Shown here: positions 4,656 to 32,629 of the stretch, in pieces
Position numbering within the stretch: the first letter of the stretch is position 1
Layout: the number at the start of each line of letters is the position of its first letter
Assembly (NCBI GenBank): GCA_018000835.1
Contig: JAGNJD010000032.1
Location: 1-32,629 of the forward strand
Direction: 5' to 3'
DNA: 32,629 nucleotides
From: Candidatus Goldiibacteriota bacterium
GTDB lineage: Bacteria; Oederibacteriota; PGYV01; DSYL01
Translations under genes and position numbers: made by a program
The notes under the pieces: generated by a model
What the model was told of the DNA's origin: nothing
The model's input: the letters and a program-made list of their open reading frames with translations, nothing else
Databases searched by the model: none

Positions 4656-5136
4656 AATAATTTTAAACAGAAAAAAACTCATAAATGAAGTAAAAAAATT
4701 TAAAAAAGCAGGAAAAAAAATAGTTTTTACCAATGGTTGTTTTGACATCGTCCATGCAGGACACGTAAAACTGCTTTCCGATGCAAAAAAAATGGGCGAC
4801 ATACTTGTCCTTGGGCTAAATAGCGATTCTTCGGTCCGCAGGTTAAAGGGAAAAAACAGGCCCATTGTCCCGCAAAACGAAAGAGCAGAGATAATGTCCG
4901 CTCTCTCATCCGTTGACATAGTAACCGTTTTTTACGAAGACGACCCTTTTAACGTGATAAAAGACATAAAACCGGACGTGCTCGTAAAAGGCGGTGATTG
5001 GCCGTTGGACAAAATAATCGGTGCTGACGTTGTCCGTTCTTATGGCGGGGCCGTAAAGAACATAAAATACATAAAAGGACAATCAACGACGAATATAATA
5101 AAAAAAATTATGGAAAGTCACGGTAATGACGTTTAG
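4645..5136 (+). CDS. hldE2: D-glycero-beta-D-manno-heptose 1-phosphate adenylyltransferase (RfaE2)
   Basis: The 163-residue protein transfers AMP from ATP to heptose 1-phosphate, yielding ADP-heptose. The nucleotidyltransferase signature TNGCFDIVHAGHVKLL includes the HxGH motif at residues 37-40. Downstream, GLNSDSSVRRLKG and VKGGDW are typical of the RfaE2/glycerol-3-phosphate cytidylyltransferase family. It starts inside the last codons of the kinase gene. It is followed by a 95-bp gap carrying a strong palindrome, so it is probably the last gene of the tightly coupled heptose block. Confidence 0.94.
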   Translation: MDSKIILNRKKLINEVKKFKKAGKKIVFTNGCFDIVHAGHVKLLSDAKKMGDILVLGLNSDSSVRRLKGKNRPIVPQNERAEIMSALSSVDIVTVFYEDDPFNVIKDIKPDVLVKGGDWPLDKIIGADVVRSYGGAVKNIKYIKGQSTTNIIKKIMESHGNDV

Positions 5137-5154
5137 TAAAAATGTTGAATCGAG

Positions 5155-5200
5155 ACGTTCGGTAAGAACGTTTTATGATGACGTTTAACGTCATCATAAA
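5155..5200. promoter_or_regulatory. Two adjacent inverted repeats between hldE2 and kdsB
   Basis: Positions 5172-5200 form a perfect palindrome with 14-bp arms (TTTATGATGACGTT and its complement) around one central T. Just upstream, ACGTTC at 5155-5160 and GAACGT at 5166-5171 form a smaller hairpin with a 5-nt loop. No T-run follows, so it is a poor intrinsic terminator. It could be a dimeric regulator site or an mRNA-stabilising hairpin between the heptose and Kdo halves of the operon. Confidence 0.6.
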
Positions 5201-5231
5201 CGTCAGTAATTAAAAGAAACGTGAGGTTTAT

Positions 5232-5993
5232 ATGAACGTTATCGGAATAATACCGGCGCGTTTAAAATCAACCCGCTTGCCGGAAAAGATGCTTGTTAAA
5301 ATAAATGGCAGATGCCTGATAGAATATGTTTATCTGAATGCATTAAAATGCAAATCAATAAAAAAACTTTACGTTGCCACGGATAACGTTAAAATAAAAA
5401 ACGTAATTGAAAAAGCCGGGGGAAACGTGATAATGACGTCAAAAAAATGTAAATCCGGGACGGAACGCATATGTGAGGCAGTTTTAAAACTAAAACTTAA
5501 TTCAAACGACGTCATCGTAAACGTGCAGGGAGACGAGCCGTTATTAGAACCAAACCTTATAGACAGGACCGTAAAGATGATGAGAGAGGATAATCATTGC
5601 GACGTCGTAACCCTTGCATCCCCGGTTAAAAACATGGACGAAATGAACGATACTTCCGTAGTAAAAGTCGTGATATCAAACGATGGATATGCATTATATT
5701 TTTCAAGAGCGTCAATACCATTTTCAAGGGATGGAAGACATCCAAATGGGGATTTTCTTTTAAAACACAAGGGTTTATATACTTACAGGAAAGGCGTTCT
5801 TGACATGTTTCCTAAATATAAGAGTAAATATGAAAACGTTGAAAAACTTGAACAGTTGCGTATTCTTGAGAATGGGTGTAAAATAAAGGTCGTAATAGCA
5901 CAATCAAATTCAATAGGCATTGACACGAAAAAGGACGTTGAGGAGTTCAGAAAGGCACTTAATAAACGAAAAAAAGCGGAGAGTAAAGCATAA
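5232..5993 (+). CDS. kdsB: 3-deoxy-manno-octulosonate cytidylyltransferase (CMP-Kdo synthetase) KdsB
   Basis: KdsB activates Kdo as CMP-Kdo in the cytoplasm for transfer to lipid A. The 253-residue product has the family's N-terminal IIPARLKSTRLPEKML (residues 5-20). It also has KSGTERICEAV and the nucleotide/Mg-binding VQGDEPLLEP. Length is normal. A GTGAGG ribosome site precedes the ATG, in the same AAACGTGAGGT context as nikR. It is separated from hldE2 by the palindromic gap but followed closely by a small gene and kdsA, so the Kdo genes form one unit. Confidence 0.95.
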   Translation: MNVIGIIPARLKSTRLPEKMLVKINGRCLIEYVYLNALKCKSIKKLYVATDNVKIKNVIEKAGGNVIMTSKKCKSGTERICEAVLKLKLNSNDVIVNVQGDEPLLEPNLIDRTVKMMREDNHCDVVTLASPVKNMDEMNDTSVVKVVISNDGYALYFSRASIPFSRDGRHPNGDFLLKHKGLYTYRKGVLDMFPKYKSKYENVEKLEQLRILENGCKIKVVIAQSNSIGIDTKKDVEEFRKALNKRKKAESKA

Positions 5994-6014
5994 AACAGGG
6001 AGGAGATGATAGAA

Positions 6015-6242
6015 ATGGAAGATGAAAAGCAGCAAAAAGAGATAGGAGACGAACTTTTAAAAATATCGCAGGCAAAGCACAAATCTGCACAGGAAAAATA
6101 TCTTGCACTGCAGCAACTTGCAAAGAAATATAACATACCGCTTGAAAAACTTTTAAAAAATATAATAACAGGATGGGTCAATGAAGACAAAAAAACGCAG
6201 CCAAAGCAAACAGGTAAAAATAAAATTAACAAAATCCTTTGA
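6015..6242 (+). CDS. Small charged hypothetical protein between kdsB and kdsA
   Basis: The 75-residue product is rich in Lys, Glu and Gln (MEDEKQQKEIGDELLKISQA) and looks wholly helical. It has a heptad-like LALQQLAKKYNIPLEKLLKNII segment and a basic tail. No known family is recognised. The ATG at 6015 is preferred to the one at 6006 because the strong GGGAGGAG site (5998-6005) lies 9 bp before it but directly abuts the other. Its last 62 bp overlap the start of kdsA in another frame. The good ribosome site and gene packing support translation. It could be a small regulator or partner of the Kdo enzymes (speculative). Confidence 0.65.
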   Translation: MEDEKQQKEIGDELLKISQAKHKSAQEKYLALQQLAKKYNIPLEKLLKNIITGWVNEDKKTQPKQTGKNKINKIL

Positions 6243-7038
6243 CATTACAAACGACGATTTCTTTTTTATTGGCGGACCATGCGTAATTGAAAATGAAAGT
6301 ATGGTTATGGAAACTGCCGCAGGATTAAAAGAAATAACGGATAAATTATCAATTCCTTTTATTTTTAAATCGTCTTATGACAAGGCAAACAGGACTTCAA
6401 TAAAAAGTTTTAGAGGACCTGGAATAAAAAAGGGATTGAATATATTGTCAAAAGTCCGCAGAAAATATAATGTTCCGGTTTTAACCGACGTTCATACACC
6501 GCAGGAAGCGGAGGTTGCAGCGGAATTTGTGGACGTGCTTCAGATACCTGCTTTTTTGTGCAGACAGACGGACGTCCTGGTTGCAGCAGGAAAGACGGGT
6601 AAGGCAGTCAACGTAAAAAAAGGACAGTTCCTGTCCCCTTTTGAAATCAAAAACGTCGTTGAAAAAATAGAGAAAACCGGAAATAACAACGTTATGTTAA
6701 CGGAGCGCGGATATGTTTTTGGTTATAACAATCTTGTCGTGGATTTAAGGTCTATTTATTATATGAGAAAAACCGGGTATCCGGTCATAATTGACGTTAC
6801 GCATTCCGTCCAGATGCCCGGCGGAAATGGAGACGTGAGCGGCGGAGACAGGGAATGCGAAGAGACGATGGCAAAAGGATGCGTCGCAGCAGGTGCCTAT
6901 GGCGTTTTTGCAGAGATTCATCCGCAGCCGGAAAAGGCATTGTCGGATCCTGCCATCCAGTATCCGCTTGACAAAATCGGGAATTTGTTAAAAAATCTTA
7001 TGGCAATATATAACGCCGCAAAATCAGCAGGAAATTAA
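6181..7038 (+). CDS. kdsA: 3-deoxy-D-manno-octulosonate 8-phosphate synthase KdsA, metal-dependent class
   Basis: KdsA condenses arabinose 5-phosphate with phosphoenolpyruvate to Kdo 8-phosphate. Motifs include FKSSYDKANRTSIKSFRGPG (residues 62-81), AGKTGKAVNVKKGQF (136-150) and VTHSVQMPGG (206-215). C34 in GGPCVIE, H208, E245 and D256 have exactly the spacing of the metal ligands C11, H185, E222 and D233 of the Aquifex enzyme. E. coli-type KdsA has Asn in place of the Cys. This therefore belongs to the metal-dependent class. The 285-residue frame has about 23 extra residues before the conserved core. No later conventional start codon lies before the core, so ATG 6181 is kept despite a 62-bp overlap with the upstream gene. 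Confidence 0.95.
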   Translation: MKTKKRSQSKQVKIKLTKSFDITNDDFFFIGGPCVIENESMVMETAAGLKEITDKLSIPFIFKSSYDKANRTSIKSFRGPGIKKGLNILSKVRRKYNVPVLTDVHTPQEAEVAAEFVDVLQIPAFLCRQTDVLVAAGKTGKAVNVKKGQFLSPFEIKNVVEKIEKTGNNNVMLTERGYVFGYNNLVVDLRSIYYMRKTGYPVIIDVTHSVQMPGGNGDVSGGDRECEETMAKGCVAAGAYGVFAEIHPQPEKALSDPAIQYPLDKIGNLLKNLMAIYNAAKSAGN

Positions 7039-17702: not shown

Positions 17703-20615
17703 ATGGTAAAAAGAAAACTAATGTTTGTTTTTTTATTGGTTTTTATTTTATGTCCGGTTTTATTTTCTGCTACATGTAACGTAAACGGGGGTTCTACATT
17801 ACAAAAAATAAGTGGTTTTGGCGCATCATCAGCGTGGAGTGAATGGAGCGGCTGTGAATGCGGCGTCAATTCTTTTTATACAGCCAATGCAGCCCAGTTT
17901 TTCAGCGTTAATAATGGAATAGGGCTTTCAATTATAAGGGCAAGAATACCGCCTGATACCGGACAATGGGGCTCAACTGCAGCACCATTACAGGCAGCAC
18001 GCGACCAGGGTGTAACGCAGATAATGGCAACTGCATGGACTCCGCCTGCTTCATGGAAAAGCAACGGGGCAGTTGATAACGCCAACGGTGCATATCTTTT
18101 ACCGCAATATTATCAGAATTATGCAGATTATCTGGTAAATTACGTAAATACGATGAAAAACAGTTATAACGTGACGATTTACGCAATATCTCCTGCAAAC
18201 GAACCAGATTATCAGGTATCCTACGATGGATGCACGTGGTCAGGGACGCAGCTCAGGGATTTTGTAAAAAATTATCTTGGTCCTGCATTTACTACGAATA
18301 ACATAACAGCGAAAATAATGATACCGGAATCTTATAAAAATGATTGCGCACTTGCAGATGCAACGTTTGCAGATGCAACGGCGCGGAACTACATATTTGC
18401 AATTGCCCAGCATTTTTATGGAGGCGGACCTACGTATTGCACGGCAGCAGGAACGTATAACAAGGAATTCTGGGAAACCGAAAAGTCAAGTTTTGAAGCA
18501 TACGATGCAACGATGACGCATGGATTGACTACTGCTTACTGGATACACCAGTGTCTTGTAAATGCAAATTTCAACGCATTTTTATACTGGTGGCTTGCAG
18601 CGGATCAGAATAACGAAGGATTACGCGGGGTTGACAATGGTGTGCCAAAAAGATTCTGGACCATGGGTAATTACAGTAAATTCATAAGGCCGGGTTATAA
18701 CAGGATAACTTGTGATGCAAATCCATCTTCAAATGTATACGTTTCAGCGTATAAGAGTTCTGATTCTTCTACTTCCGTCATAGTTGCCATAAACAGAAAT
18801 ACTTCGGCAGTAAGCATGACGTTTTCCTTATCCGGCATAACTGCAACTTCATTTACTCCATGGATTACTTCTTCTTCCTACGACCTGGCACAGCAGGGAG
18901 CTGTTACGGTATCTGGTGGTTCTTTTACCTATAATCTGCCTGCCCAAAGCGTCGTAAGTTTTGTAGGTGCAGGAAGCATTGCATCACCGACAGTAACACC
19001 AACACAGGTGGTGGTTTCTACGTGGCGGGTTGTGGCAGGGAGGGACACGTCATACACAGACAGTCAGGGGAACGTATGGTTAAGTGACAGGAACTACAGC
19101 GGCGGCACGGCATACAGCACAACTAATACAATATCAAATGCATTACCAGGAGCATCAGACCAGGCATTGTATCAGACAGAGAGATACGGGAATCCGTTTA
19201 CGTATACATTTAACGTGCCGGCAGGGACGTATCAGGTAACGTTAAAATTTGCCGAAACTTATTTTACGTCGGCAGGACAAAGGTCGTTTAACGTAAGTAT
19301 AAACGGGACGCAGGTATTAACGAATTTTGACATATATGCAGCAGCAGGTGGAGGAAATATAGCAATAGACAGGATATTTAATAACATAACGCCGTCAGGA
19401 GGGACTATAACGATACAATTCGGGCCGGCAGGGACGGATAATGCAAAGATATGTGCCATACAGATAATACCGCAGCCTGTAACGCCGACAGTAACGAGGA
19501 TGAGAACGATGACGTTCACAGGGACGCGGACAGGGACGCCGACGTGGACAAGAACGGCAACAGGGACGTCAACGCGGACGAACACAGTTCAACCGACTAA
19601 CACATGGACGTGGACGCAGACAGTGACGTCAACAATGACGTGGACATCAACAGGGACATTAACGTGGACGAATACGATGCAGCCGACAGAGACGTTCACT
19701 GGAACGTGGACAAACACACCAAGTTTAACCGTTACAGATACGATATCATCAAATACGCCAACAATAACGCAGACATGGACAGTGACGTCAACATTGACGT
19801 GGACGAGAACTGGAACGCCGACGTATTCACGGACAGAGACAACAGGGACGGCAACGCGGACGAATACGACGCAGCCGACAAGCACGTTCACGTGGACAAG
19901 GACGCCGAGTTTAACTGTTACTGATACGATATCATCAAATACGCCGACAGTAACGCAGACATGGACGCTAACGGCCAGTTCAACGATGACATGGACAATG
20001 ACAGCAACGCGGACGTCAACTGGTTCAGTAACGCGGACAAACACGATGCAGCCGACAGGCACGTTCACGTGGACAAGGACTATGACGCAGACGTGGACCA
20101 TGACAAATACACGAACAAGCACACCAACGCCAACATTCACGCAGACGGTAACTCGGACGGTAACACGGACATTCACACAAACAAACACACCTTCTTTTAC
20201 CATGACTGTTACGCTGACGCGGACTCACACTGCAACGCTGGTTTCAACAAAAACGATAACACAGACGGCAACGTCAACTGTAATACCGGATGAAAAGGAA
20301 TTAAAAATAGAAGACGTAGTTATATATCCAAACCCGTATAATCCAGATAATCCAGACAGCGGAGATTTGCACATAGGATTTGAAATAACGCAGGCATGTA
20401 AGATAATTAATGTTCGCATATACACGTCAGGTTTCAGATTAGTAAAACAGATAACGCAGACGGGAAATTACACGGTGGGACGTAACGTAATTGATATAGA
20501 AAGCAGGTATATAAAAAATCTTGCGAATGGTTCATATTTTGTAATAATAACTGCAATAAATAAGCAGGGAAAACAGGAGAGCAGTAAACCGCAAATATTG
20601 ATAAAATTAAGATAA
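17703..20615 (+). CDS. Secreted GH30 glycoside hydrolase with malectin-like module, Thr-rich linker and C-terminal sorting-like domain
   Basis: The 970-residue enzyme has a signal peptide (cleavage near FSA, residue 23). The GH30 catalytic domain spans about residues 26-425. The (beta/alpha)8 acid/base is E167 in SPANEPDY and the likely nucleophile is E260 in FWETEKSSF. GH30 members cut glucuronoxylan, beta-1,6-galactan or glucosylceramide; the neighbouring pectin enzymes favour xylan or beta-1,6-galactan side chains of arabinogalactan. Residues about 437-590 form a malectin/CBM57-like module (WRVVAGRDTSYTDSQGNVWL to AICAIQIIPQP-like end). A Thr-x repeated linker (about 592-860) and the shared tail domain (about 866-970, VVIYPNPYNPDNP) follow. 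It is the first gene of a unit with GH53, 33 bp apart. Confidence 0.9.
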   Translation: MVKRKLMFVFLLVFILCPVLFSATCNVNGGSTLQKISGFGASSAWSEWSGCECGVNSFYTANAAQFFSVNNGIGLSIIRARIPPDTGQWGSTAAPLQAARDQGVTQIMATAWTPPASWKSNGAVDNANGAYLLPQYYQNYADYLVNYVNTMKNSYNVTIYAISPANEPDYQVSYDGCTWSGTQLRDFVKNYLGPAFTTNNITAKIMIPESYKNDCALADATFADATARNYIFAIAQHFYGGGPTYCTAAGTYNKEFWETEKSSFEAYDATMTHGLTTAYWIHQCLVNANFNAFLYWWLAADQNNEGLRGVDNGVPKRFWTMGNYSKFIRPGYNRITCDANPSSNVYVSAYKSSDSSTSVIVAINRNTSAVSMTFSLSGITATSFTPWITSSSYDLAQQGAVTVSGGSFTYNLPAQSVVSFVGAGSIASPTVTPTQVVVSTWRVVAGRDTSYTDSQGNVWLSDRNYSGGTAYSTTNTISNALPGASDQALYQTERYGNPFTYTFNVPAGTYQVTLKFAETYFTSAGQRSFNVSINGTQVLTNFDIYAAAGGGNIAIDRIFNNITPSGGTITIQFGPAGTDNAKICAIQIIPQPVTPTVTRMRTMTFTGTRTGTPTWTRTATGTSTRTNTVQPTNTWTWTQTVTSTMTWTSTGTLTWTNTMQPTETFTGTWTNTPSLTVTDTISSNTPTITQTWTVTSTLTWTRTGTPTYSRTETTGTATRTNTTQPTSTFTWTRTPSLTVTDTISSNTPTVTQTWTLTASSTMTWTMTATRTSTGSVTRTNTMQPTGTFTWTRTMTQTWTMTNTRTSTPTPTFTQTVTRTVTRTFTQTNTPSFTMTVTLTRTHTATLVSTKTITQTATSTVIPDEKELKIEDVVIYPNPYNPDNPDSGDLHIGFEITQACKIINVRIYTSGFRLVKQITQTGNYTVGRNVIDIESRYIKNLANGSYFVIITAINKQGKQESSKPQILIKLR
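19475..20280 (+). repeat. Thr-rich linker repeats in the GH30 gene
   Basis: Almost every second codon is Thr, nearly always ACG or ACA. Two modules recur: one of about 30 codons (TPTWTRTATGTSTRTNTVQP type) and one with SLTVTDTISSNTPTxTQTWT. The DNA is close to that of the other linkers in this window; for example, 20093-20170 is nearly identical to 22270-22347 in the GH53 gene. Confidence 0.9.
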
Positions 20616-20648
20616 TTACAATTTGGGATTACAGGATTTTTTTTAAAA

Positions 20649-22796
20649 ATGAAATTTACAAAAAAATTATTTTATTTTCTTTTAAACGTTCCTTTTTTAT
20701 TCCTTATTTTTTCAAAATCATATGCAGCAACGTTTGCAAATGGTGCAGACGTTGGTTGGCTTTCACAAATGGAATCGTCCGGATATAAATTTTATGACGA
20801 TAATGGAGTTCAGCGGGATTGCCTGCAGATTTTAAAAGACCATTGCATAGATTCAATCCGTTTAAGGGTCTGGGTAAATCCATCAGGCGGCTGGTGCGGA
20901 AAGCAGGACGTCGTTAACATGGCTTTGCGTGCCAAAAACATGGGCTTCAGAATTATGATTGATTTCCATTACAGTGATTCATGGGCAGACCCGGGTAAGC
21001 AGACAAAACCAGCAGCATGGGCAGGATATGATTTTAACCAGTTAGTGCAGGCCGTTTATGACCATACCTATGACGTGTTAAATACGCTTGCAGCAAACGG
21101 TATTACCCCTGAATGGGTTCAGGTCGGAAATGAAACAAACGATGGAATGCTATGGGAAGATGGAAGAGCATCGGCAAATATGGGTAATTTTGCACGGCTA
21201 ATATCAAGCGGATATGATGCAGTAAAAGCCGTTAATCCGCAGATAAAAGTAATTGTGCACATTTCAAATGGGTATGATAACGGACTTTTCAGATGGATAT
21301 TTGACGGATTAAAAAATAATGGGGAAAAATGGGACGTAATAGGCATGTCTCTTTATCCGGAACCTACAAACTGGCAAACCTTAACCGGTCAGTGTTTAAC
21401 CAACATGAACGACATGATAATCCGTTATTCCGGCAAAGAAGTCATGATTTGTGAAATAGGCATGGATTACAGGGAAATGCAGGCATCGCATGATTTTATT
21501 ACTGACATAATTAATAAAACAAAATCGTTGGCAGGTAATAAAGGTCTGGGCGTTTTTTACTGGGAACCGGAATGTTATAACTGGCAGGGATACACAAAAG
21601 GTGCATGGAACACGAATGGACGACCTACAATTGCAATGGACGCTTTTCTGGAAAATTGTCCGATAAATTTACCATCTCCAACGTTCACAAGAGCGAATAT
21701 TAATACGTTTACTATGACACGGACGATAACTGCAAGTTTTACGTCAACGGCAACAAGGACGAGGACTGCAACAGGGACGGTAACACGGACAAACACAGTG
21801 CAGCCGACAGAGACGTTCACTGGAACGTGGACAAACACACCAAGTTTAACCGTTACAGATACGATATCATCAAATACGCCAACAATAACGCAGACATGGA
21901 CAGAAACACCGCTATCGCCGACAAATACACCGACGATAACGCAGACATGGACAGTAACGTCAACCGGGACGTGGACGAGAACTGGAACGCCGACGTATTC
22001 ACGGACGGCAACATTAACGCAAACTGCAACAAGCAGCCAGCAGCCGACAAACACGTTCACAGGTACGCGGACAAACACGCCAGGTTTAACCGTTACAGAT
22101 ACAATATCATCAAATACACCGACGATAACGCAGTCGTGGACAATGACGTCAACATTGACGTGGACTCGGACAGTGACGTCGACGTTGACAAGATCGGCGA
22201 CAGGAACGTCAACGCGGACAAACACGATGCAGCCGACAGGCACGTTCACGTGGACTATGACATCAACGCAGATGTGGACCATGACAAATACACGAACAAG
22301 CACACCAACGCCAACATTCATGCAGACGGTAACTCGGACGGTAACACGGACATTCACACAAACAAACACACCTTCGTTTACCATGACTATCACACCGACA
22401 CGGACGCAAACTGCAACATTACTTTCAACAAAAACGATAACACAGACGGCAACGTCAACTGTAATACCGGATGAAAAGGAATTAAAAATAGAAGACGTAG
22501 TTATATATCCGAATCCGTATAATCCAGATAATCCAGACAGCGGAGATTTGCACATAGGATTTGAAATAACGCAGGCATGTAAGATGATTAATGTTCGCAT
22601 ATACACGTCAGGTTTCAGATTAGTAAAACAGATAACACATACGGGAAATTACACGGTGGGACGTAACGTAATTGATATAGAAAGCAGGTATATAAAAAAT
22701 CTTGCAAATGGTTCGTATTTTGTAATAATAAGTGCAATAAATAAGCAGGGAAAACAGGAAAATAGCAAACCCGAGATATTGGTAATTTTAAAATAA
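20649..22796 (+). CDS. Secreted GH53 endo-beta-1,4-galactanase with Thr-rich linker and C-terminal sorting-like domain
   Basis: The 715-residue product has a signal peptide ending at SYAA. The GH53 domain (about residues 28-340) cleaves beta-1,4-galactan side chains of type I arabinogalactan and rhamnogalacturonan I. Family landmarks are GADVGWLSQME (32-42), IRLRVWVNP (70-78), MIDFHYSDSWADPGKQTKPAAW, the acid/base E162 in QVGNETNDGMLW and the nucleophile E269 in MICEIGMDY. A linker of about 280 residues and the shared ~100-residue tail follow. The ribosome site is weak (CAGGA, spaced 12 bp), so translation may depend on the GH30 gene just upstream. There is no malectin module here. Confidence 0.94.
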   Translation: MKFTKKLFYFLLNVPFLFLIFSKSYAATFANGADVGWLSQMESSGYKFYDDNGVQRDCLQILKDHCIDSIRLRVWVNPSGGWCGKQDVVNMALRAKNMGFRIMIDFHYSDSWADPGKQTKPAAWAGYDFNQLVQAVYDHTYDVLNTLAANGITPEWVQVGNETNDGMLWEDGRASANMGNFARLISSGYDAVKAVNPQIKVIVHISNGYDNGLFRWIFDGLKNNGEKWDVIGMSLYPEPTNWQTLTGQCLTNMNDMIIRYSGKEVMICEIGMDYREMQASHDFITDIINKTKSLAGNKGLGVFYWEPECYNWQGYTKGAWNTNGRPTIAMDAFLENCPINLPSPTFTRANINTFTMTRTITASFTSTATRTRTATGTVTRTNTVQPTETFTGTWTNTPSLTVTDTISSNTPTITQTWTETPLSPTNTPTITQTWTVTSTGTWTRTGTPTYSRTATLTQTATSSQQPTNTFTGTRTNTPGLTVTDTISSNTPTITQSWTMTSTLTWTRTVTSTLTRSATGTSTRTNTMQPTGTFTWTMTSTQMWTMTNTRTSTPTPTFMQTVTRTVTRTFTQTNTPSFTMTITPTRTQTATLLSTKTITQTATSTVIPDEKELKIEDVVIYPNPYNPDNPDSGDLHIGFEITQACKMINVRIYTSGFRLVKQITHTGNYTVGRNVIDIESRYIKNLANGSYFVIISAINKQGKQENSKPEILVILK
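21672..22460 (+). repeat. Thr-rich linker repeats in the GH53 gene
   Basis: It contains the same two codon modules as the GH30 linker, in a different order, plus an extra TPLSPTNTPTITQTWT unit. Near-identical blocks shared with the GH30, GH74 and PL11 genes indicate exchange between genes. Confidence 0.9.
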
Positions 22797-22831
22797 ATTA
22801 TATTCCGATTTAAGCTTACAAAACCAATTAG

Positions 22832-22882
22832 TTAAAACGGTTTAAAAAAAAACTTGATATTAAAACGTTTTTATGGTATAAT
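22832..22882 (+). promoter_or_regulatory. Promoter and candidate operators of the GH74-PL11 unit
   Basis: TTGATA (22854-22859) and TATAAT (22877-22882) are 17 bp apart, with an extended -10 TG at 22874-22875. GTTAAAACGGTTTAAAA starts at 22831, with its CG 16 bp before the -35. The perfect palindrome AAAACGTTTT (22862-22871) lies between the two boxes. A repressor bound there would block the polymerase. Confidence 0.7.
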
Positions 22883-22913
22883 TATTTACAAAAATCAAGG
22901 AGTTTTTAAGTAA

Positions 22914-25900
22914 ATGAAATCAAGATTTAGTATGTTATTCGTAATAATATTTTTTCTTTTCATTCCTTTTATCTCATCCGGTGCTTCTGTTTCTTATAAC
23001 TGGAAAAACGTAATCATAGGCGGTGGTGGTTTTGTAACGGGTATAGTTTATCATCAGGCAGAGTCAGGCCTTGTTTATGCACGAACTGACATGGGCGGCG
23101 CATACAGATGGGATAATTCACTTGGCCGCTGGGTTGCAATAACTGACATGATGAACAGGAATAATTCCGATTATATGGGAATATTATCTATAGCCGTTGA
23201 CCCGACAGACACAAACAGGGTATATCTCATGACCGGTAAATATACGGACTCGTGGGCGGGAAATGGCGCAGTTCTTGTTTCAACAAACCGAGGTAATAGC
23301 TGGACTATTGTTCCATTAAATTTCAAAGTTGGTGGAAATGAAGAAGGTCGTGGTTGTGGAGAGAGACTTGCCGTTGATCCTAATTTACCATCTAAACTTT
23401 TTATGGGAAGTGGTGGCGATGTAGGTTATGGATTATGGCAATCAACCAATTATGGTTCTTCCTGGTCTCAGGTTACTTCATTTAATACCACTGCAAATAT
23501 AAATTTTGTAATTTTTGATAAAGCCAGTGGTTCATCAGGTAGTGCAACACCAAGAATATTTGTGGGAGTAAAAAATACAGGCGGACAGTCATTATATGTA
23601 AGCACTAATGGAGGTTCATCGTGGTCAGTAGTTTCTGGACAGCCAGGCGGTTTAATGGCAATACGTGCAGATATATCATCTGGTTATTTATATACAACAT
23701 GGTCAAACAGCGCAGGACCTAATAATGCAACAGCAGGTGCAGTATGGCGTTATACAATTTCAAGTGGAGCCTGGACAAATATTACGCCAGCAAGTGGTTC
23801 GTATGGATATAGCGGAATATCAGTTGATGCACAGAATCCAAATCATATAATAGTTTGTACTCTTGATTTATGGTGGCCACTTGATCAGGTATGGCGTTCA
23901 ACGAACGGTGGTTCTTCATGGACTTATCTTATGTGGAATCCTTCAAATAATCAGGTTATTGCCAATTTTGACAGAACTTATGCACCCTGGACATCAATAA
24001 GAACGCCGCATTGGCTTGCAGACATAAAAATAGATCCGTTTAATTCAAATAAAGCAATGTTCGTAACCGGTTATGGTATATGGGCATGCGACAACATTTC
24101 TGCTGCAACAACGACGTGGTATTTTAAGGATAACGTTCTGGAAGAAATGGTCCCGCTGGAAATCGTTTCACCGCCGTCGGGTGCATTGCTTCTTTCGGCA
24201 ACCGGCGACCAGGGAGTTTTCAGACATGACAATCTGGATGCATCTCCTTCCTCAGGCGTCGCATTAAACGTCGGCACGTCGCTTTCCATAGATTATGCAG
24301 AAAGTCTGCCGACAAAAGTAGTCGCTGCATTTAATACGTCGCCTTACGGCGCGTATTCGACGAACGGCGGCACGTCATGGACGAATTTTTCCTCTTATCC
24401 GTCCGGTGCAACTGCCGGGGGAGACAAAGCAATTGCAATATCGGCGAATGGCAACATAATCGTATGGGCTCCGGATAATGCGCCTTTATCATATTCCACA
24501 AACAACGGCAATTCATGGACGACGTGCGGCGGAAGTCCTCCTCGCGGATATTTTCCCGAATCGGACAGGGTAAATTCAAACAAATTTTATTATTATGATG
24601 CTGTGAATGGCAGGTTGTGGGTTTCAACAAATGGAGGATCTTCTTTTTCTCAAATGTCAACTGTTTATCCCACATTACCTGATTATCAATCATATAACGG
24701 TTCAGTTAATGCCGTGTTTGGCAGGGAAGGGGATTTATGGATAACGACCGGTGCAGGAGGACTTTATCATTCAACCGATTCCGGCACGAGTTCATCAAAG
24801 GTGAGCAGCGTTACCGAGGCATATCTTATAGGTTTTGGAAAATCATCAGGAACGAGTTCTTACCCTGCAATATATTTGCATGGAATAGTCGGCGGCGCCA
24901 TTGGAATTTACAGGTCAGACGACGGCGGTTCGTCGTGGAGCAGAATAAATACTGACAGCACGCAGTTTGGATGGCTACATTGCATAAAAGGAGACCAGAG
25001 AACTTATGGAAGATGTTACGTTTCTGCGGAAGGAAGAGGCGTGCTTTACGGAGACCCTGCCGGTTCTACGGGTTCTCCTACGTTTACTCCAACAAGGACA
25101 AGGACACCTACCATAGGAGCAACGAGCACTTATACAAGAACTCGTACACCGACGTGGACAAGAACAGGAACTTTGACTTTTACGCGAACGAATACAATAG
25201 TATTAACGAGTACTTTTACGTGGACCCGCACAGGCACGCCGACGTGGACGAGGACTGCAACAGGGACGTCAACGCGGACAAACACAGTGCAGCCGACAAG
25301 CACGTTCACGTGGACCCGCACAGGCACGCCGACATGGACGAGGACTGCAACAGTGACGTCAACACGGACAAACACAGTGCAACCGACAAGCACATTCACG
25401 TGGACGCGGACAGGGACGCCGACTTATTCACGGACAGTGACAGGGACGTCAACGCGGACGAATACAGTGCAGCCGACAAGCACGTTCACGTGGACGCGGA
25501 CAGAAACGCCGCCATCGCCGACAAACACACCGACGATAACTGGAACGCCAACATATTCACGAACAGAGACGGGAACATCAACGCGGACAAACACGATACA
25601 GCCGACAAACACGTTCACTGGAACGAGAACACAAACGCTGACGTATTCACTGACGGCAACATTGACGCAGACTGCAACAAACAGCCGGCAGCCGACAAAC
25701 ACGTTCACAGAAACAAGAACAATCACGCCAAATTTAACCGTTACAGATACAATATCATCAAATACGCCGACAATAACGCAGACGTGGACAGGGACGCCGC
25801 CATCGCCGACAAACACACCGACGATAACGCAGTCGTGGACAGTAACGTCAACCGGGACGTGGACACGGACAGTGACACCGACAATGACGCGGACGTCAAC

Positions 25901-26465
25901 TGGTTCGTCAACGCGGACAAACACGATGCAGCCGACAGGCACGTTCACGTGGACGCGGACATGGACACCAACGTGGACAGGAACATTAACGTCAACGTTC
26001 ACGCAGACGGTAACGCGGACATTCACACAGACAAACACGCCTTCGTTTACGCTAACTATTACTCAGACACGGACGCAAACTGCAACACTGCTTTCAACAA
26101 TGACAATAACGCCGACGTCAACGTCAACTGTAATACCTGATGAAGAAAAATTAAAAATAGGAGACGTAGTCATATATCCGAATCCGTATAATCCAGATAA
26201 TCCAGACAGCGTGGACTTGCACATAGGATTTGAAATAACGCAGGCGTGCAAGACAATAAAAGTACGTATATTTACTTCCGGATTCAGATTAATAAAGCAG
26301 ATAACGCATGCAGGGAATTACTCGGTAGGACGTAACGTAATAGACATAGAAAGCAGGTATATAAAAAATCTTTCGAATGGTTCATATTTTGTTATAATAA
26401 GCGCAATAAATAAGCAGGGGAAGCAGGAAAATAGCAAACCTATTGTCCTTGTTATCTTAAAATGA
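22914..26465 (+). CDS. Secreted GH74 xyloglucanase with Thr-rich linker and C-terminal sorting-like domain
   Basis: The 1183-residue product has a signal peptide (to about residue 24). A double seven-bladed propeller of family GH74 (about 26-720) carries many Asp-box-like STNGGSSW turns. The catalytic base is probably D59 in YARTDMGGAYRW and the acid D432 in SATGDQGVF, by analogy with characterised GH74 enzymes. GH74 cleaves the xyloglucan backbone. A linker of about 350 residues, the longest in the window, and the shared tail domain follow. The DNA for residues about 124-395 (23281-24100) lacks ACGT and reads GATGT or TATGT where the rest prefers GACGT or TACGT, hinting at a mosaic origin. 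Its stop codon is 19 bp before the PL11 start. Confidence 0.93.
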   Translation: MKSRFSMLFVIIFFLFIPFISSGASVSYNWKNVIIGGGGFVTGIVYHQAESGLVYARTDMGGAYRWDNSLGRWVAITDMMNRNNSDYMGILSIAVDPTDTNRVYLMTGKYTDSWAGNGAVLVSTNRGNSWTIVPLNFKVGGNEEGRGCGERLAVDPNLPSKLFMGSGGDVGYGLWQSTNYGSSWSQVTSFNTTANINFVIFDKASGSSGSATPRIFVGVKNTGGQSLYVSTNGGSSWSVVSGQPGGLMAIRADISSGYLYTTWSNSAGPNNATAGAVWRYTISSGAWTNITPASGSYGYSGISVDAQNPNHIIVCTLDLWWPLDQVWRSTNGGSSWTYLMWNPSNNQVIANFDRTYAPWTSIRTPHWLADIKIDPFNSNKAMFVTGYGIWACDNISAATTTWYFKDNVLEEMVPLEIVSPPSGALLLSATGDQGVFRHDNLDASPSSGVALNVGTSLSIDYAESLPTKVVAAFNTSPYGAYSTNGGTSWTNFSSYPSGATAGGDKAIAISANGNIIVWAPDNAPLSYSTNNGNSWTTCGGSPPRGYFPESDRVNSNKFYYYDAVNGRLWVSTNGGSSFSQMSTVYPTLPDYQSYNGSVNAVFGREGDLWITTGAGGLYHSTDSGTSSSKVSSVTEAYLIGFGKSSGTSSYPAIYLHGIVGGAIGIYRSDDGGSSWSRINTDSTQFGWLHCIKGDQRTYGRCYVSAEGRGVLYGDPAGSTGSPTFTPTRTRTPTIGATSTYTRTRTPTWTRTGTLTFTRTNTIVLTSTFTWTRTGTPTWTRTATGTSTRTNTVQPTSTFTWTRTGTPTWTRTATVTSTRTNTVQPTSTFTWTRTGTPTYSRTVTGTSTRTNTVQPTSTFTWTRTETPPSPTNTPTITGTPTYSRTETGTSTRTNTIQPTNTFTGTRTQTLTYSLTATLTQTATNSRQPTNTFTETRTITPNLTVTDTISSNTPTITQTWTGTPPSPTNTPTITQSWTVTSTGTWTRTVTPTMTRTSTGSSTRTNTMQPTGTFTWTRTWTPTWTGTLTSTFTQTVTRTFTQTNTPSFTLTITQTRTQTATLLSTMTITPTSTSTVIPDEEKLKIGDVVIYPNPYNPDNPDSVDLHIGFEITQACKTIKVRIFTSGFRLIKQITHAGNYSVGRNVIDIESRYIKNLSNGSYFVIISAINKQGKQENSKPIVLVILK
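25074..26132 (+). repeat. Thr-rich linker repeats in the GH74 gene
   Basis: Several successive 90-bp units of the TPTWTRTATGTSTRTNTVQP type are followed by SLTVTDTISS-type units and several PPSPTNTPTIT units. This is the longest linker in the window and therefore the likeliest to vary in length or to assemble wrongly. Confidence 0.9.
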
Positions 26466-26484
26466 TTTGAAGAGGTTTGATGTT

Positions 26485-29400
26485 ATGAAATCTGGTTATA
26501 AGAAAATACTAATATTATTTTCTTTATTTATCGCAATATCAAACGTATATTCTGCACGATACATGGAAAATCTTGACAGAGGTGTTGTTGCAGTATGGCT
26601 TGGCAGCAACAGGGTATGGGTTGGCTGGAGGATGTCAGGCACTGACCCATCCGGCATTTCGTTTAACGTATACAGGAACGGAACAAAAATAAATTCATCT
26701 GCAATTACGAATGTCACTTATTATATAGATACGGCAGGCAGTCAGACCGCAAGTTATTATATAAGACCAGTAGTAGGAGGGGTAGAACAGACAGCATCAA
26801 AAAGCGTTACTCCTTGGTCTACTTTTTACAAGACATTGCCGTTACAGATACCATCGGGCGGGACGACTCCTGATGGAGTAGCATATACGTATAATGCAAA
26901 TGATTGCAGCACAGGTGACCTTGATGGAGATGGTGAATATGAAATTGTATTAAAATGGGACCCGTCAAATTCAAAGGATAATTCCCAGAGCGGATATACC
27001 GGAAACGTTTATCTTGATGCATATAAATTAAACGGGACGAGGTTATGGAGGATAGACCTTGGAATAAACATAAGAGCAGGAGCACATTATACCCAGTTTA
27101 TGGTTTATGACCTTGATTGTGACGGTAAGGCAGAAGTTGCGTGCAAGACGGCGCCTGGGACAAAAGACGCAACAGGGAGTTATTTGCATACCGGACCTGC
27201 AGCAAGCGACGATGATAGTGCTGATTACAGGAATTCATCAGGATATATTTTAAGCGGACCTGAATATTTAACGGTTTTCAGGGGGACAAACGGTGCAGAG
27301 ATAGTGACGGTAAATTACGTGCCTGCAAGAGGGACGGTATCAAGCTGGGGCGATAGTTATGGAAACAGGGTTGACAGGTTTCTTGCATGCATAGCATATC
27401 TGGATGGAGTGAAACCAAGTCTTGTAATGCAGAGGGGATATTATACAAGGATGGTGATTGCGGCGTGGGATTTTAACGGGACAAATCTTACGCAGAGATG
27501 GGTATTTGACAGTAATAGCAGCGGAAATAGCAGTTATGCAGGGCAGGGCAATCATAATTTAAGTGTTGGAGACGTTGATGGTGATGGAAAGGATGAAATA
27601 ATACAGGGAGCATGCGCAATAAATGACAATGGGACAGGGATGTATGTAACCGGGTTAGGACACGGAGACGCAATGCATTTTGGAGATCTTGCTCCGGACA
27701 GGGCAGGACTGGAGGTCTGGGAAGTGCATGAATCTACAAGTGCAGCGTATGGATATGAACTGCATGACGCAAGGACAGGGGCGATTGTGTGGGGAACATA
27801 TACAGGGACAGACAACGGCAGAGGACTTGCAGCAGACATAGACTCACGTTATCGTGGTTATGAGATGTGGTCAACCGGCGGGACAGGAGTATACTCCTGC
27901 ACGGGAACGCAGATATCAACGTCAAGGCCTACTGTAAATTTCAGAATATACTGGGACGGGGATTTGCTTGACGAGGTTCTGGACGGCACGTTGATAGACA
28001 AATGGACCGGCAGCGGGACCACAAGATTGCTGACGGGATATAATTATGAATCAACGACCGGAAATAACGGGACGAAAAATACGCCGTGTTTATCAGCGGA
28101 CATTCTTGGCGACTGGAGGGAAGAACTCATATTAAGGAAGTCGGACAATACGGCACTTGTAATATTTACTACTACGACGGAAACGAGTTTCAGGATGTAT
28201 ACTCTTATGCATGACCCGATATACAGGCTGGGCATAGCATGGCAAAACGTGGCATATAACCAGCCGCCGCATCTTGGGTTTTATTTATACGATGGGAATC
28301 CGCCTACACCTGATATAATACTGGTTGGAGCAGGGACGGCAACTCCGGTTATAACTCCGACGCGGACGAGAACACCTACTTTAACTTTAACGCGGACATG
28401 GACAATGACAGGAACACGAACATCAACAAGAACACAAACCATGACGATAACGCCGACGCAGGTAGTAACTGCGATATGGCGGATAGCAGCAGGGAGAAAC
28501 ACGTCATATACGGATTCGCAGGGAAACGTATGGTTAAGTGACAGGAATTATAACGGAGGACTAACATATAATACGAGCAATGAAGTAACAAACGCATTGC
28601 CATCAGCGGCGGACCAGACGTTGTATCAGAACGAGAGGCACGGGAGTTCGTTTACGTATACGTTTAACGTTCCGGCAGGGACGTATCAGGTGACGTTAAA
28701 GTTTGCAGAGACGTTCTGGACGGAAGCAGGGGCAAGGATATTTAACGTAAGCATAAACGGGACGCAGGTGCTGACAAACTTTGACATATATGCAGCAGCA
28801 GGTGGAGCAAACATTGCCATAGACGAGGTATTTAACAACATCCAGCCGGTTGGTGGAGTAATAACGCTACAGTTTGGACCGGCGAGCATAGATGGAGCAA
28901 AGGTATGTGCGATACAAATAATACCACAGCCGGCAACGCCAACTGTTACGAGGACGAGGACGGCAACGCCGACGTGGACAAGAACAGCAACGAGAACGTC
29001 AACGCGGACAAATACAGTGCAGCCGACAAACACGTTCACGTGGACACGGACAGGGACGCCGACGTGGACGAGGACTGCAACGGGAACGTCAACGCGGACA
29101 AATACAGTGCAGCCGACAAACACGTTCACGTGGACACGGACAGTGACGCCGACGTGGACGAGGACTGCAACAGGAACGGCAACGCGAACGAACACAGTGC
29201 AGCCGACAAACACGTGGACAGGAACAAGAACAAGCACACCAAATTTAACCGTTACAGATACGATATCGTCAAATACACCGACATTAACGCCGACATGGAC
29301 GAGGACTGCAACAGGGACGTCAACACGGACAAACACGACGCAGCCGACAAGCACGTTCACTGGTACGCGGACAAACACGCCAGGTTTAACCGTTACAGAC

Positions 29401-30063
29401 ACGATATCATCAAATACACCGACGATAACGCAGACGTGGACAATGACGTCTACATTGACGTGGACGAGGACAATAACGCCGACAATGACGAGGACATTAA
29501 CGGGAACGTCAACGCAGACAAACACAGTGCAACCGACAAACACGTTCACGTGGACGAGGACAGGGACACCAACGTGGACAGGAACATTAACGTCAACGTC
29601 AACGTTCACGCAGACGGTAACACGGACATTCACATGGACGAACACGCCTTCATTAACGGTAACTGTTACGCTGACGCGGACGCATACTGCAACGCTGGTT
29701 TCAACAAAAACTATAACACAGACGGCGACGTCAACTGTAATACCCGATGAAGAAGAATTAAAAATAGAAGACATAGTCATATATCCGAATCCGTATAATC
29801 CAATCAAAGGAGATTTGCATATAGGATTAAATATAACTCAGGCATGTAAGACGATGAAAGTGCGCATATACACGTCAGGTTTCAGATTAGTAAAGCAGAT
29901 AACGCAGACGGGAAATTACACGGTGGGACGTAACATAATAGATATAGAAAACAGATATATAAAAAATCTTGCAAACGGTTCATATTTTGTAATAATAACT
30001 GCGACGAATAAGCAGGGGAAACAGGAAAGCAGCAAACCTGAAATCCTTATAATTTTAAGATAA
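26485..30063 (+). CDS. Secreted PL11 rhamnogalacturonan lyase with malectin-like module, Thr-rich linkers and C-terminal sorting-like domain
   Basis: This 1192-residue enzyme (ATG 26485, AGAGG at 26471-26475; an in-frame TTG at 26467 is less likely) has a signal peptide ending at VYSA. The PL11 domain (about 23-615) starts with ARYMENLDRGVVAVW and carries several calcium-binding DxDxDG loops (GDLDGDGEYEIV, YDLDCDGKAEV, GDVDGDGKDEII), as in YesW/YesX. These cut the Rha-GalA backbone of rhamnogalacturonan I by beta-elimination. A short Thr linker leads into a malectin-like module (WRIAAGRNTSYTDSQGNVWL) closely related to that in the GH30 enzyme. A long linker follows, then the tail domain, here shortened to PYNPIKGDLHIG. 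It is cotranscribed with GH74. Confidence 0.93.
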   Translation: MKSGYKKILILFSLFIAISNVYSARYMENLDRGVVAVWLGSNRVWVGWRMSGTDPSGISFNVYRNGTKINSSAITNVTYYIDTAGSQTASYYIRPVVGGVEQTASKSVTPWSTFYKTLPLQIPSGGTTPDGVAYTYNANDCSTGDLDGDGEYEIVLKWDPSNSKDNSQSGYTGNVYLDAYKLNGTRLWRIDLGINIRAGAHYTQFMVYDLDCDGKAEVACKTAPGTKDATGSYLHTGPAASDDDSADYRNSSGYILSGPEYLTVFRGTNGAEIVTVNYVPARGTVSSWGDSYGNRVDRFLACIAYLDGVKPSLVMQRGYYTRMVIAAWDFNGTNLTQRWVFDSNSSGNSSYAGQGNHNLSVGDVDGDGKDEIIQGACAINDNGTGMYVTGLGHGDAMHFGDLAPDRAGLEVWEVHESTSAAYGYELHDARTGAIVWGTYTGTDNGRGLAADIDSRYRGYEMWSTGGTGVYSCTGTQISTSRPTVNFRIYWDGDLLDEVLDGTLIDKWTGSGTTRLLTGYNYESTTGNNGTKNTPCLSADILGDWREELILRKSDNTALVIFTTTTETSFRMYTLMHDPIYRLGIAWQNVAYNQPPHLGFYLYDGNPPTPDIILVGAGTATPVITPTRTRTPTLTLTRTWTMTGTRTSTRTQTMTITPTQVVTAIWRIAAGRNTSYTDSQGNVWLSDRNYNGGLTYNTSNEVTNALPSAADQTLYQNERHGSSFTYTFNVPAGTYQVTLKFAETFWTEAGARIFNVSINGTQVLTNFDIYAAAGGANIAIDEVFNNIQPVGGVITLQFGPASIDGAKVCAIQIIPQPATPTVTRTRTATPTWTRTATRTSTRTNTVQPTNTFTWTRTGTPTWTRTATGTSTRTNTVQPTNTFTWTRTVTPTWTRTATGTATRTNTVQPTNTWTGTRTSTPNLTVTDTISSNTPTLTPTWTRTATGTSTRTNTTQPTSTFTGTRTNTPGLTVTDTISSNTPTITQTWTMTSTLTWTRTITPTMTRTLTGTSTQTNTVQPTNTFTWTRTGTPTWTGTLTSTSTFTQTVTRTFTWTNTPSLTVTVTLTRTHTATLVSTKTITQTATSTVIPDEEELKIEDIVIYPNPYNPIKGDLHIGLNITQACKTMKVRIYTSGFRLVKQITQTGNYTVGRNIIDIENRYIKNLANGSYFVIITATNKQGKQESSKPEILIILR
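28930..29745 (+). repeat. Thr-rich linker repeats in the PL11 gene
   Basis: At least three successive 90-bp units of the type TPTWTRTATGTSTRTNTVQP are almost identical, then SLTVTDTISS-type units follow. A shorter Thr-rich stretch at about 28339-28460 separates the catalytic domain from the malectin-like module. Confidence 0.9.
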
Positions 30064-30085
30064 ATTTAAAATTGTTAATTACTTT

Positions 30086-30164
30086 TAAACGTTTATTTAT
30101 TATTTTATTGTATGCTAAACCGATTTAAAATAATATTGACACGAAAACGGTTTTGTTGTAAAAT
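30086..30164 (+). promoter_or_regulatory. Promoter and candidate operators of the DUF6055-like gene
   Basis: TTGACA (30136-30141) and TAAAAT (30159-30164) are 17 bp apart. Three CG-centred sites surround it: the perfect palindrome TAAACGTTTA (30086-30095), CTAAACCGATTTAAAA at 30115-30130, and AAAACGGTTTT (30144-30154) between the boxes. The arrangement parallels the GH74 promoter. Confidence 0.65.
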
Positions 30165-30200
30165 AATAAAAATTGCTTAAATACTAAAAGGGGCAATATT

Positions 30201-32629
30201 GTGAGAAGGAAAATAATTTTAATAATAGGTTTATTAAGTTTTAATATAAGTTTATTTGCAGCAAAATCCGTATTTATACCTAACGAATTTTCCAATTATC
30301 CATTAAACCAGTGGTCATGGGATAAATCATACCAGTCGGATAACTTTGTCGTTTTCTGGGGACCTATTGTAGGAACTGACCCGGCAAATTATTCAGATGC
30401 AAATTTACGTTTTAATCCATCCAACGTATGTAATTATCTTGAGACCGCATTTGCAAAATACATAAACGAGATACAGTTTGTATCAAATGACGCATCAACG
30501 AATTTTGGCAAATACAAAACAATAGTAGTAATGAATGACACATGGGGAGATGGCGGCCCGTCCGGATGGGCATTTGGCGGTTCATATGGCAACGTTATTG
30601 CTGCAATGTGGGTTCATCCCGGCGCTACAAAAGATGGATTGGTGCTTGCTCATGAATTTGCACATGGATGTCAGAACATGCAGTCAATACAGGAAAATAA
30701 AGTTGGCGGAGGGTTTGTTAATTATGAACCGGGAGGATTTTTCTGGGAAGGTCACGCCAATTTTATGAGAACACAGGTATATCCTAATAACGCAGAGGAA
30801 GATTATCCAAGATGGTTGATGACAAGAATGTTTCATTATAGTTCCACAAGACACCATTACTGGGGTCCTCCAAGATTATTATACACAATAATGGAAATAG
30901 ATGGAATAAACTGGATAAATAGATTATGGAAAGAATCTGTTTCAAGAGAACATCCTCTTGTAACATACAGACGACTTAAAGGATGGACACAATCTCAGTT
31001 AAATGATCTTATATATGAATACGCAAAGAGAGAAGTAACTCAAAATTATAATGTTACAAATTATGGTGGCACTACAAATATAGGGACAGTAATAAGAAAT
31101 GAATATAACAGATTAAAAAATAATGAACCGCATTATTTATGGCGTGATTATACAATGTTATTAAAAGTGACTACTACTGCTCAGAACAGATATTTTTGTC
31201 CGGATTATTTTGCTCCACAGGATTATGGAATAAACATAATACCGATATATCCTGATAATACTTCTCAACCGGTATGCGTAAAATTCAAAGGCCATGCAGA
31301 ATCAAACAGTTACACAGGCTGGAGATATGGATTTGTAGCAGTAAATTCAAGTAACGTGGCAAGATATGGTGAAATGTATAGAGAAAATGAAAGAGAAATA
31401 ACATTTCAATTAAATACAGGAGAAACTCAATTGTTTTTAGTTGTTGTAGGTTCGCCTACGACGCATACGTCATACGTATGGGAACCGGGCTGGCCAAAGA
31501 TTTACAGATTTCCATATGAGGTATGCATTTCAAACGGGGTACCGGAAGGGTATCAAAGCAATTTCAGGTCAGATATAAAAAGCAAATATGCAGGACATGC
31601 TCATTCAAACGGTGGAGGATGGGTGGCAAATACGGCATCCGTTGCATCAAGCGTTTACGTTGGTCCTAAAGCAGTTATTCTTGGTAGTTCAAATATTTCA
31701 GGAAATGTGAGAATTGATGGGACAGTATGGGTTGAGAATGCAACTGTAAGAGATAATGTAATAATTGACGGAAATGCAAGAATTCGCGGAGGAACATATA
31801 GTAATGATGCAAGAATAATTGAAAATGCAATATGTTATAGTTGCACGGTTTCAGGTGGTGCAACATTAAAAGGCGATATGTTTTCATGGGGCGGTAATTT
31901 CAGTGGCACAGCCATAGTAGGAGGCGATGCAGAAATTTCATCTGCATCAAGCGGGGTTTATCTGCAAACGCCGCATTCTAATAATGGCAGAACAGAAAAT
32001 GACGGCAAAGGTGCAACAGATCCATCAAATATAGATATAAATGCAGCAGTAATTCCATTTACGGATGGGACATTTGGAACGTGCTGCAGCGAAGTAACGC
32101 CGGTAATAACGCCGACAAGGACGGTTACAATAACACAAACGAGGACGCCGACATGGACAAGGACGGCAACGGGAACGTCAACGCGGACAAACACAGTGCA
32201 GCCGACAAGCACGTTCACAGGGACACGGACAGGCACGCCGACATGGACGAGGACGGCAACGGGAACGTCAACACGGACAAACACAGTGCAGCCGACAAAC
32301 ACGTTCACGTGGACACGTACAACAACGCCGACATGGACGAGGACAAGTACACCAAGTTTAACCGTTACAGATACGATATCATCAAATACTCCTACGATAA
32401 CACCGACGCGGACAGGAACTGCAACAGGAACGTCAACGCGGACAAATACGATGCAGCCGACAAGCACGTTCACGTGGACACGTACAACAACGCCGACATG
32501 GACGAGGACAAGTACACCATGTTTAACCGTTACAGATACGACATCATCAAATACTCCTACGATAACACCGACGCAGACAGGAACTGCAACAGGGACGTCA
32601 ACGCGGACAAACACGATGCAGCCGACAAG
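30201..32629 (+). CDS. Secreted DUF6055-like HExxH protein with left-handed beta-helix and Thr-rich linker (partial)
   Basis: The frame starts at GTG 30201, after AAAAGGGG at 30186-30193, and stays open to the end of the window (over 809 codons), so the 3' end is missing. After a signal peptide (to about residue 20) comes a domain with HEFAH at residues 151-155 and E183 in FFWEGHANF. This is a zinc-peptidase-like HExxH plus downstream Glu layout, in a context (DTWGDGGPSGWAFGG, VVFWG) that recalls DUF6055/AvrD-like secreted proteins. Around residues 475-590 short hexapeptide-like repeats (GNVRIDGTVWVENATVRDN) suggest a left-handed beta-helix. The same Thr-x linker modules as the CAZymes begin near residue 630. 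A target such as wall glycoprotein is plausible but unproven. Confidence 0.75.
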   Translation, partial: MRRKIILIIGLLSFNISLFAAKSVFIPNEFSNYPLNQWSWDKSYQSDNFVVFWGPIVGTDPANYSDANLRFNPSNVCNYLETAFAKYINEIQFVSNDASTNFGKYKTIVVMNDTWGDGGPSGWAFGGSYGNVIAAMWVHPGATKDGLVLAHEFAHGCQNMQSIQENKVGGGFVNYEPGGFFWEGHANFMRTQVYPNNAEEDYPRWLMTRMFHYSSTRHHYWGPPRLLYTIMEIDGINWINRLWKESVSREHPLVTYRRLKGWTQSQLNDLIYEYAKREVTQNYNVTNYGGTTNIGTVIRNEYNRLKNNEPHYLWRDYTMLLKVTTTAQNRYFCPDYFAPQDYGINIIPIYPDNTSQPVCVKFKGHAESNSYTGWRYGFVAVNSSNVARYGEMYRENEREITFQLNTGETQLFLVVVGSPTTHTSYVWEPGWPKIYRFPYEVCISNGVPEGYQSNFRSDIKSKYAGHAHSNGGGWVANTASVASSVYVGPKAVILGSSNISGNVRIDGTVWVENATVRDNVIIDGNARIRGGTYSNDARIIENAICYSCTVSGGATLKGDMFSWGGNFSGTAIVGGDAEISSASSGVYLQTPHSNNGRTENDGKGATDPSNIDINAAVIPFTDGTFGTCCSEVTPVITPTRTVTITQTRTPTWTRTATGTSTRTNTVQPTSTFTGTRTGTPTWTRTATGTSTRTNTVQPTNTFTWTRTTTPTWTRTSTPSLTVTDTISSNTPTITPTRTGTATGTSTRTNTMQPTSTFTWTRTTTPTWTRTSTPCLTVTDTTSSNTPTITPTQTGTATGTSTRTNTMQPT
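32093..32629 (+). repeat. Thr-rich linker repeats in the DUF6055-like gene (cut by window end)
   Basis: The modules TPTWTRTATGTSTRTNTVQP and SLTVTDTISSNTPTITPT recur here. A composite unit of about 180 bp (around 32240-32420 and 32420-32600) is duplicated almost exactly, with Ser-Leu changed to Cys-Leu in the second copy. Confidence 0.85.

Follow-up and report, generated by a model that had tools for sequence, protein, structure and literature searches.

A C-terminal tail related to type IX sorting domains on enzymes of a Candidatus Goldiibacteriota genome with SprA- and PorV-like genes

The type IX secretion system (T9SS) has been called specific to Bacteroidota or to the FCB superphylum, and one paper reports its genes as absent from other phyla (PMC11285876, PMC12421860, PMC11205867). 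Type A C-terminal domains of T9SS substrates carry a near-invariant Lys near the C-terminus (PMC10994853). In type B systems, dedicated PorP/SprF carriers stay bound as anchors (PMC12618676, PMC12635249). The name of one NCBI model, "putative type IX sorting system protein PorV2", indicates that curators had already met carriers related to those described below. For a T9SS in Goldbacteria or Elusimicrobia, the open literature gave only reference-list or unrelated mentions, so that an earlier account elsewhere is possible. In the Goldbacteria cellulase paper, type IX secretion appears in a reference only (PMC7031533).

The stretch of DNA analysed here, the window, is the entire contig C29 (32,629 bp) of a 2.32-Mb, 74-contig Candidatus Goldiibacteriota genome. 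Five genes on the same strand run from position 17703 to the contig end, and a Thr-rich linker followed by a C-terminal tail closes four of them (Table 1). An earlier note on the window had described GH30, GH53, GH74 and PL11 enzymes that share a tail and a linker with Thr at nearly every second residue, and a fifth protein cut before its tail. This architecture was confirmed in all four proteins, and the DUF6055 gene indeed meets the contig end inside its linker. Domain scans upheld the names GH30, GH53 and PL11. The GH30 protein matched NCBIfam XynC at 213.7 bits, under the model's cut-off, and gave Pfam GH30C and malectin matches. The name GH74 was not confirmed, as the GH74/BNR-like protein had no Pfam match and only a weak glycosylhydrolase match in NCBIfam. 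The PL11 gene starts with TTG as listed, and an ATG at 26485 is a possible alternative start. The DUF6055/Svx-AvrXca protein (30201-32627) also contains a weakly bactofilin-like part.

Table 1 Genes, linkers and tails in the 3' part of the window.
Feature	Position	Strand	Remarks
GH30-family gene	17703..20615	+	Signal peptide, GH30 catalytic part, malectin domain, Thr linker, tail
Thr-x linker, GH30 protein	19461..20282	+	43% Thr
C-terminal tail (type-A-CTD-like), GH30 protein	20283..20615	+	110 residues
GH53 gene with linker and tail	20649..22796	+	Pfam GH53, 330 bits
Thr-x linker, GH53 protein	21666..22463	+	40% Thr
C-terminal tail, GH53 protein	22464..22796	+	AlphaFold2 model, pLDDT 96
GH74/BNR-repeat-like gene with linker and tail	22914..26465	+	Family name without Pfam confirmation
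Thr-x linker, GH74-like protein	25047..26132	+	42% Thr
C-terminal tail, GH74-like protein	26133..26465	+	
PL11 rhamnogalacturonan lyase gene, malectin domain, two Thr linkers, tail	26467..30063	+	RGL11_C 787 bits, malectin 103 bits
Short first Thr linker, PL11 protein	28315..28491	+	Precedes malectin domain
Second Thr-x linker, PL11 protein	28909..29739	+	43% Thr
C-terminal tail, PL11 protein	29740..30063	+	107 residues
DUF6055/Svx-AvrXca family gene, incomplete	30201..32627	+	Contig ends within its linker
Thr-x linker, DUF6055 protein	32058..32627	+	45% Thr; cut by contig end

The window linkers are 190-370 residues long and contain 40-45% Thr (40-43% in the four complete proteins). Given a Thr, the probability of another at +2 is 0.82-0.90, compared with 0.00-0.06 at +1. 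A DNA pattern search for 11 alternating ACN codons gave 1784 overlapping matches in the genome, versus 3 for a reversed-pattern control. Several contigs start or end in or beside Thr-linker repeats, as seen at the window end (32629) and in C1, C6 and C34. Because contigs break in or near these repeats, the gene counts for the tail family are lower limits.

The four window tails are 107-110 residues long, and each ends exactly at the stop codon. Searching the genome with a single query, we found the tail in 30 reading frames, and a profile located it at 55 places (E ≤ 0.01). All 30 inspected proteins carried the tail at the C-terminus, in most cases preceded by a Thr-rich stretch. K or R occupies position -9 in 27 of the 30 tails and the last position in 28, as part of a conserved hydrophobic-basic C-terminal stretch. 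The earlier note had looked to signal peptides and diverse catalytic domains in support of its reading, and both were found. The passengers are mostly glycoside hydrolases of many families, which outside the window include GH5, GH8 (two), GH9 (five), GH26, GH44 and GH116, and also comprise PL11, an S8 peptidase, CBM proteins and a beta-helix protein. A signal-peptide-like start was present in all 22 proteins with an intact N-terminus, and the case that the note had named as contradicting it, a tail on a cytoplasmic protein, was not seen. The hydrophobic score was at least 2.2 in 21 of these 22, whereas nine housekeeping proteins encoded in the window scored 0.8-1.7; for the remaining one (GH26, L037; score 1.6) the signal peptide was judged by eye. 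The other eight of the 30 were uninformative on this point, comprising five contig-end cuts, one N run, one interrupted GH8 frame and one fragment lacking a passenger. This fragment is a 156-residue linker-tail piece (L037, C37:4485-4952). The GH8 tail gene (L045, C53 near 54133-54444) is interrupted upstream, with a signal peptide further upstream in another frame.

The earlier note had also held that the window tails are more alike than folding needs and hence may serve transport. This argument is weak. The four window tails are 78-93% identical; across 22 tails of the genome only P9, P11, R45 and G76 are invariant, and identity to the first sequence falls to 30%. Among the window tails, dS is 0.18-0.82 and dN/dS about 0.08-0.21, and the GH30 and GH53 linkers share an identical stretch of 105 bp. 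The close similarity of the window tails reflects recent copying or recombination together with purifying selection. Near-identity was dropped as a sign of a transport function, given the divergence of the 22 tails.

We utilized AlphaFold2 to predict the structure of the GH53 tail, and the model was all-beta with eight strands. Unrelated Ig-like domains made up most of the matches when this model was used in a fold search, in which PorU ranked sixth. The predicted fold is of the expected kind but by itself neither decisive nor discriminating. A profile of the 22 tails was then compared with solved proteins and gave only two matches at E ≤ 1, both of them T9SS tails: the PorU C-terminal domain of P. 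gingivalis (6za2, E 7e-4), which is the best solved sequence relative, and, weakly, a T9SS type A domain in a translocon complex (8glj_D, E 0.04). Both matches bear out the resemblance to type IX sorting domains that the earlier note had pointed out. On these sequence grounds, the tail is distantly homologous to T9SS type A C-terminal domains (TIGR04183 / PF18962 Por_Secre_tail). It shares with them a C-terminal Ig-like beta-sandwich starting with YPNP and a basic residue near the end, and, as for type A substrates, the passengers have Sec signal peptides and the genome encodes PorV-family barrels. However, the window tails score under the curated models (best 12.9 bits against TIGR04183, cut-off 23). 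Other tails of the same genome exceed this cut-off, at 36, 35 and 27.7 bits, or pass Por_Secre_tail.

On contig C51 the genome encodes a single SprA/Sov-like protein, 2082 residues long, so that a sov-like gene, which the earlier note had suggested looking for, is present in diverged form. The protein scored 194 bits against TIGR04189 (E 3e-57), just under the cut-off of 200, and a profile of ten SprA-like relatives matched Flavobacterium johnsoniae SprA (6h3i; PMC10994853) with E 1e-47. Matching segments are colinear across the 2082-residue protein. Unlike F. johnsoniae SprA, the Goldiibacteriota protein is strongly diverged, has an N-terminal Fn3 domain and, in this genome and in relatives, adjoins a gene encoding Fn3 repeats and a FlgD-Ig-like tail. 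An upstream MCP-domain gene, seen here and in some relatives, is a further difference. In this genome, genes for a 543-aa protein with an MCP signalling domain and for a 227-aa protein that probably spans the membrane once lie upstream of the SprA-like gene (L062:16692-18323 and L062:18320-19003); the same order recurs in G001, G004 and G009, whereas G003 and G011 retain only the gene for the shorter protein.

SprA-like genes were found in 40 of 45 genomes of the phylum. Relatives at 81% identity are named Candidatus Goldiibacteriota, and more distant ones are labelled FCPU426, Firestonebacteria, Elusimicrobia, Spirochaetes, Zixibacteria, Hydrogenedentes and Lindowbacteria. In a FastTree phylogeny with long branches and an unsure deep order, SprA grouped by phylum for Elusimicrobiota, Firestoneibacteriota, Zixiibacteriota and Spirochaetota. 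Such grouping fits old vertical descent and not recent transfer into this genome. The complete ones among the SprA-like proteins from Elusimicrobiota, Firestoneibacteriota, Spirochaetota, Zixiibacteriota, Hydrogenedentota and Lindowiibacteriota (L107-L185) are mostly 1.7-2.1 thousand residues long.

PorV-like genes, likewise proposed as a check, proved numerous. We identified about 22 PorV/PorQ-family genes in the genome, 16 of which exceeded the NF033709 cut-off and one the PF19572 cut-off, and the family occurred in all 41 genomes searched. When an AlphaFold2 model of one member (pLDDT 84) was compared with solved structures, the chains in the PorV position of two T9SS translocon structures, 8gl6 and 6h3i, ranked first (E 6e-12 and 2e-10); the next-best match was at 2e-6, and FadL-type barrels were several orders behind. 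Five of the carriers in this genome (L077, L079, L080, L095 and L097) end in an OmpA-like, peptidoglycan-binding part, confirmed by Pfam in L077, the one scanned. Other carriers bear TPRs.

Tail genes and PorV-family genes frequently lie side by side. We inspected 62 PorV-family genes (22 from this genome and 40 sampled from relatives), and in 28 a tail gene was the immediate same-strand neighbour, usually directly upstream. This applied to half of the carriers in this genome and to 17 of the 40 from relatives; about half of the PorV genes had no tail gene alongside. The tail was present in 30 of 119 ORFs neighbouring PorV genes versus 4 of 174 other ORFs of the same stretches (p 1e-9). Outside the phylum, across 339 genomes, tail-profile hits occurred in 99 of 114 genomes with SprA versus 8 of 225 without (p 1e-58), a comparison that concerns the wider tail family and counts related genomes as independent, though most are from different genera. 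The pairing resembles that of type B C-terminal domains with dedicated PorP/SprF carriers, in which substrate and carrier genes also adjoin (PMC12618676, PMC12635249). In contrast to type B systems, however, the Goldiibacteriota carriers belong to the PorV/PorQ family, the tails are type-A-like, and an OmpA domain is fused to some carriers, whereas F. johnsoniae uses a separate PorE-like protein. The arrangement also differs from type A secretion with PorV, in that about 22 paralogues, half of them adjoining a tail gene, take the place of one general carrier.

A porU-like gene, also suggested by the earlier note, did not turn up: a PorU-type C25 sortase (PF01364) was absent from this genome and was found in 4 of the 44 genomes of the set, relatives that serve as positive controls. 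GldM (TIGR03517) was not detected in this genome or in 14 others of the phylum, and appeared only in G247 and G377, the two with the strongest SprA scores. TIGR03517 is a narrow model that gives no match in other genomes whose SprA exceeds the cut-off, so that a diverged motor is possible. As neither a PorU-type C25 peptidase nor GldM was found, cleavage and the established energy source are either lacking or have escaped recognition, and we do not file the system as a canonical T9SS. Judged by its parts, it should nevertheless work like one in translocon, carrier and signal. The earlier note's view of the tail family as a type IX sorting signal was largely right with regard to the SprA- and PorV-like genes, their pairing with tails and their co-occurrence, but does not extend to a canonical T9SS.

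We consider it probable that the tail serves as a signal for outer-membrane export and sorting, read by a divergent T9SS-like translocon that works with many dedicated carriers. The enzyme would cross the inner membrane by Sec, in line with the signal peptide seen. A PorV/PorQ-family barrel would then catch the tail in the pore of the diverged SprA/Sov-like translocon; as T9SS structures suggest (PMC10994853), the tail would bind carrier loops in the SprA pore, and carrier and substrate would exit together. The enzyme would either stay on its carrier, in some cases one with a C-terminal OmpA domain, or be released. More weakly, we infer that the tail probably stays on, since no PorU-type sortase was found, that the carriers may remain in place as anchors, as those of type B substrates do (PMC12618676), and that the Thr-rich linker may form a long, probably glycosylated spacer or stalk.

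Ig- and FlgD-like folds are common in bacterial extracellular enzymes, and the tail might be a mere folding, stability or substrate-binding module that has no role in export and owes its spread to being useful in secreted enzymes. Although a fold search alone cannot separate this explanation from a sorting function, we regard it as unlikely: the tail is C-terminal in 30/30 proteins with unrelated passengers, keeps its hydrophobic-basic end, matches PorU and a type A tail in sequence, and shows strong links with SprA when genomes are compared and with PorV genes within operons. Quite unlikely, too, is that the enzymes leave by another route, such as type II secretion, and that the tail then anchors or retains them at the surface, with the PorV-like barrels as outer-membrane docking partners and no SprA step. 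Carriers with OmpA or TPR parts do look like docking proteins, no sortase was found in this genome, and its SprA is strongly diverged. Yet almost the entire phylum retains SprA-like genes, which adjoin a FlgD-Ig-tail gene, and SprA co-occurs with tails in distant phyla.

The shared linker stretches of up to 105 identical bp, and the contig ends that fall within linkers, could also be read as signs of a recombination cassette, in which linker and tail move by repeat-mediated exchange and have no selected function. The purifying selection on the tails already weakens this explanation, and the same tail family occurs in every genome of the phylum searched; we hold it to be very improbable.

Beyond the export role of the tail, we tentatively propose, at somewhat less than even confidence, a sortase-less T9SS-like export outside the FCB superphylum. 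It would combine one SprA with about 20 PorV-family carriers, many of them paired with their own substrate and staying as surface anchors, some tied to peptidoglycan by the fused OmpA part. With SprA grouping by phylum for Firestoneibacteriota, Elusimicrobiota, Spirochaetota and Zixiibacteriota, the core of translocon and carriers would predate the rotary machine of Bacteroidota, to which motor and sortase were added later. If true, T9SS would have a wider range, with translocon, carriers and signal occurring in Goldiibacteriota and translocon genes in Elusimicrobiota and elsewhere, and this would bear on its origin. The proposal also offers an explanation, open to testing, for how enzymes could reach the cell surface in an uncultured phylum that degrades cellulose (PMC7031533), and would allow the secretome of these genomes to be read from the tail.

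An outer membrane is indicated by HldE/RfaE-like, KdsB-like and KdsA-like genes for LPS core sugars at window positions 4645-7038, which were named from their translations without a family scan. In addition, positions 201-1337 of the window encode a lipoprotein-like RCC1-repeat protein.
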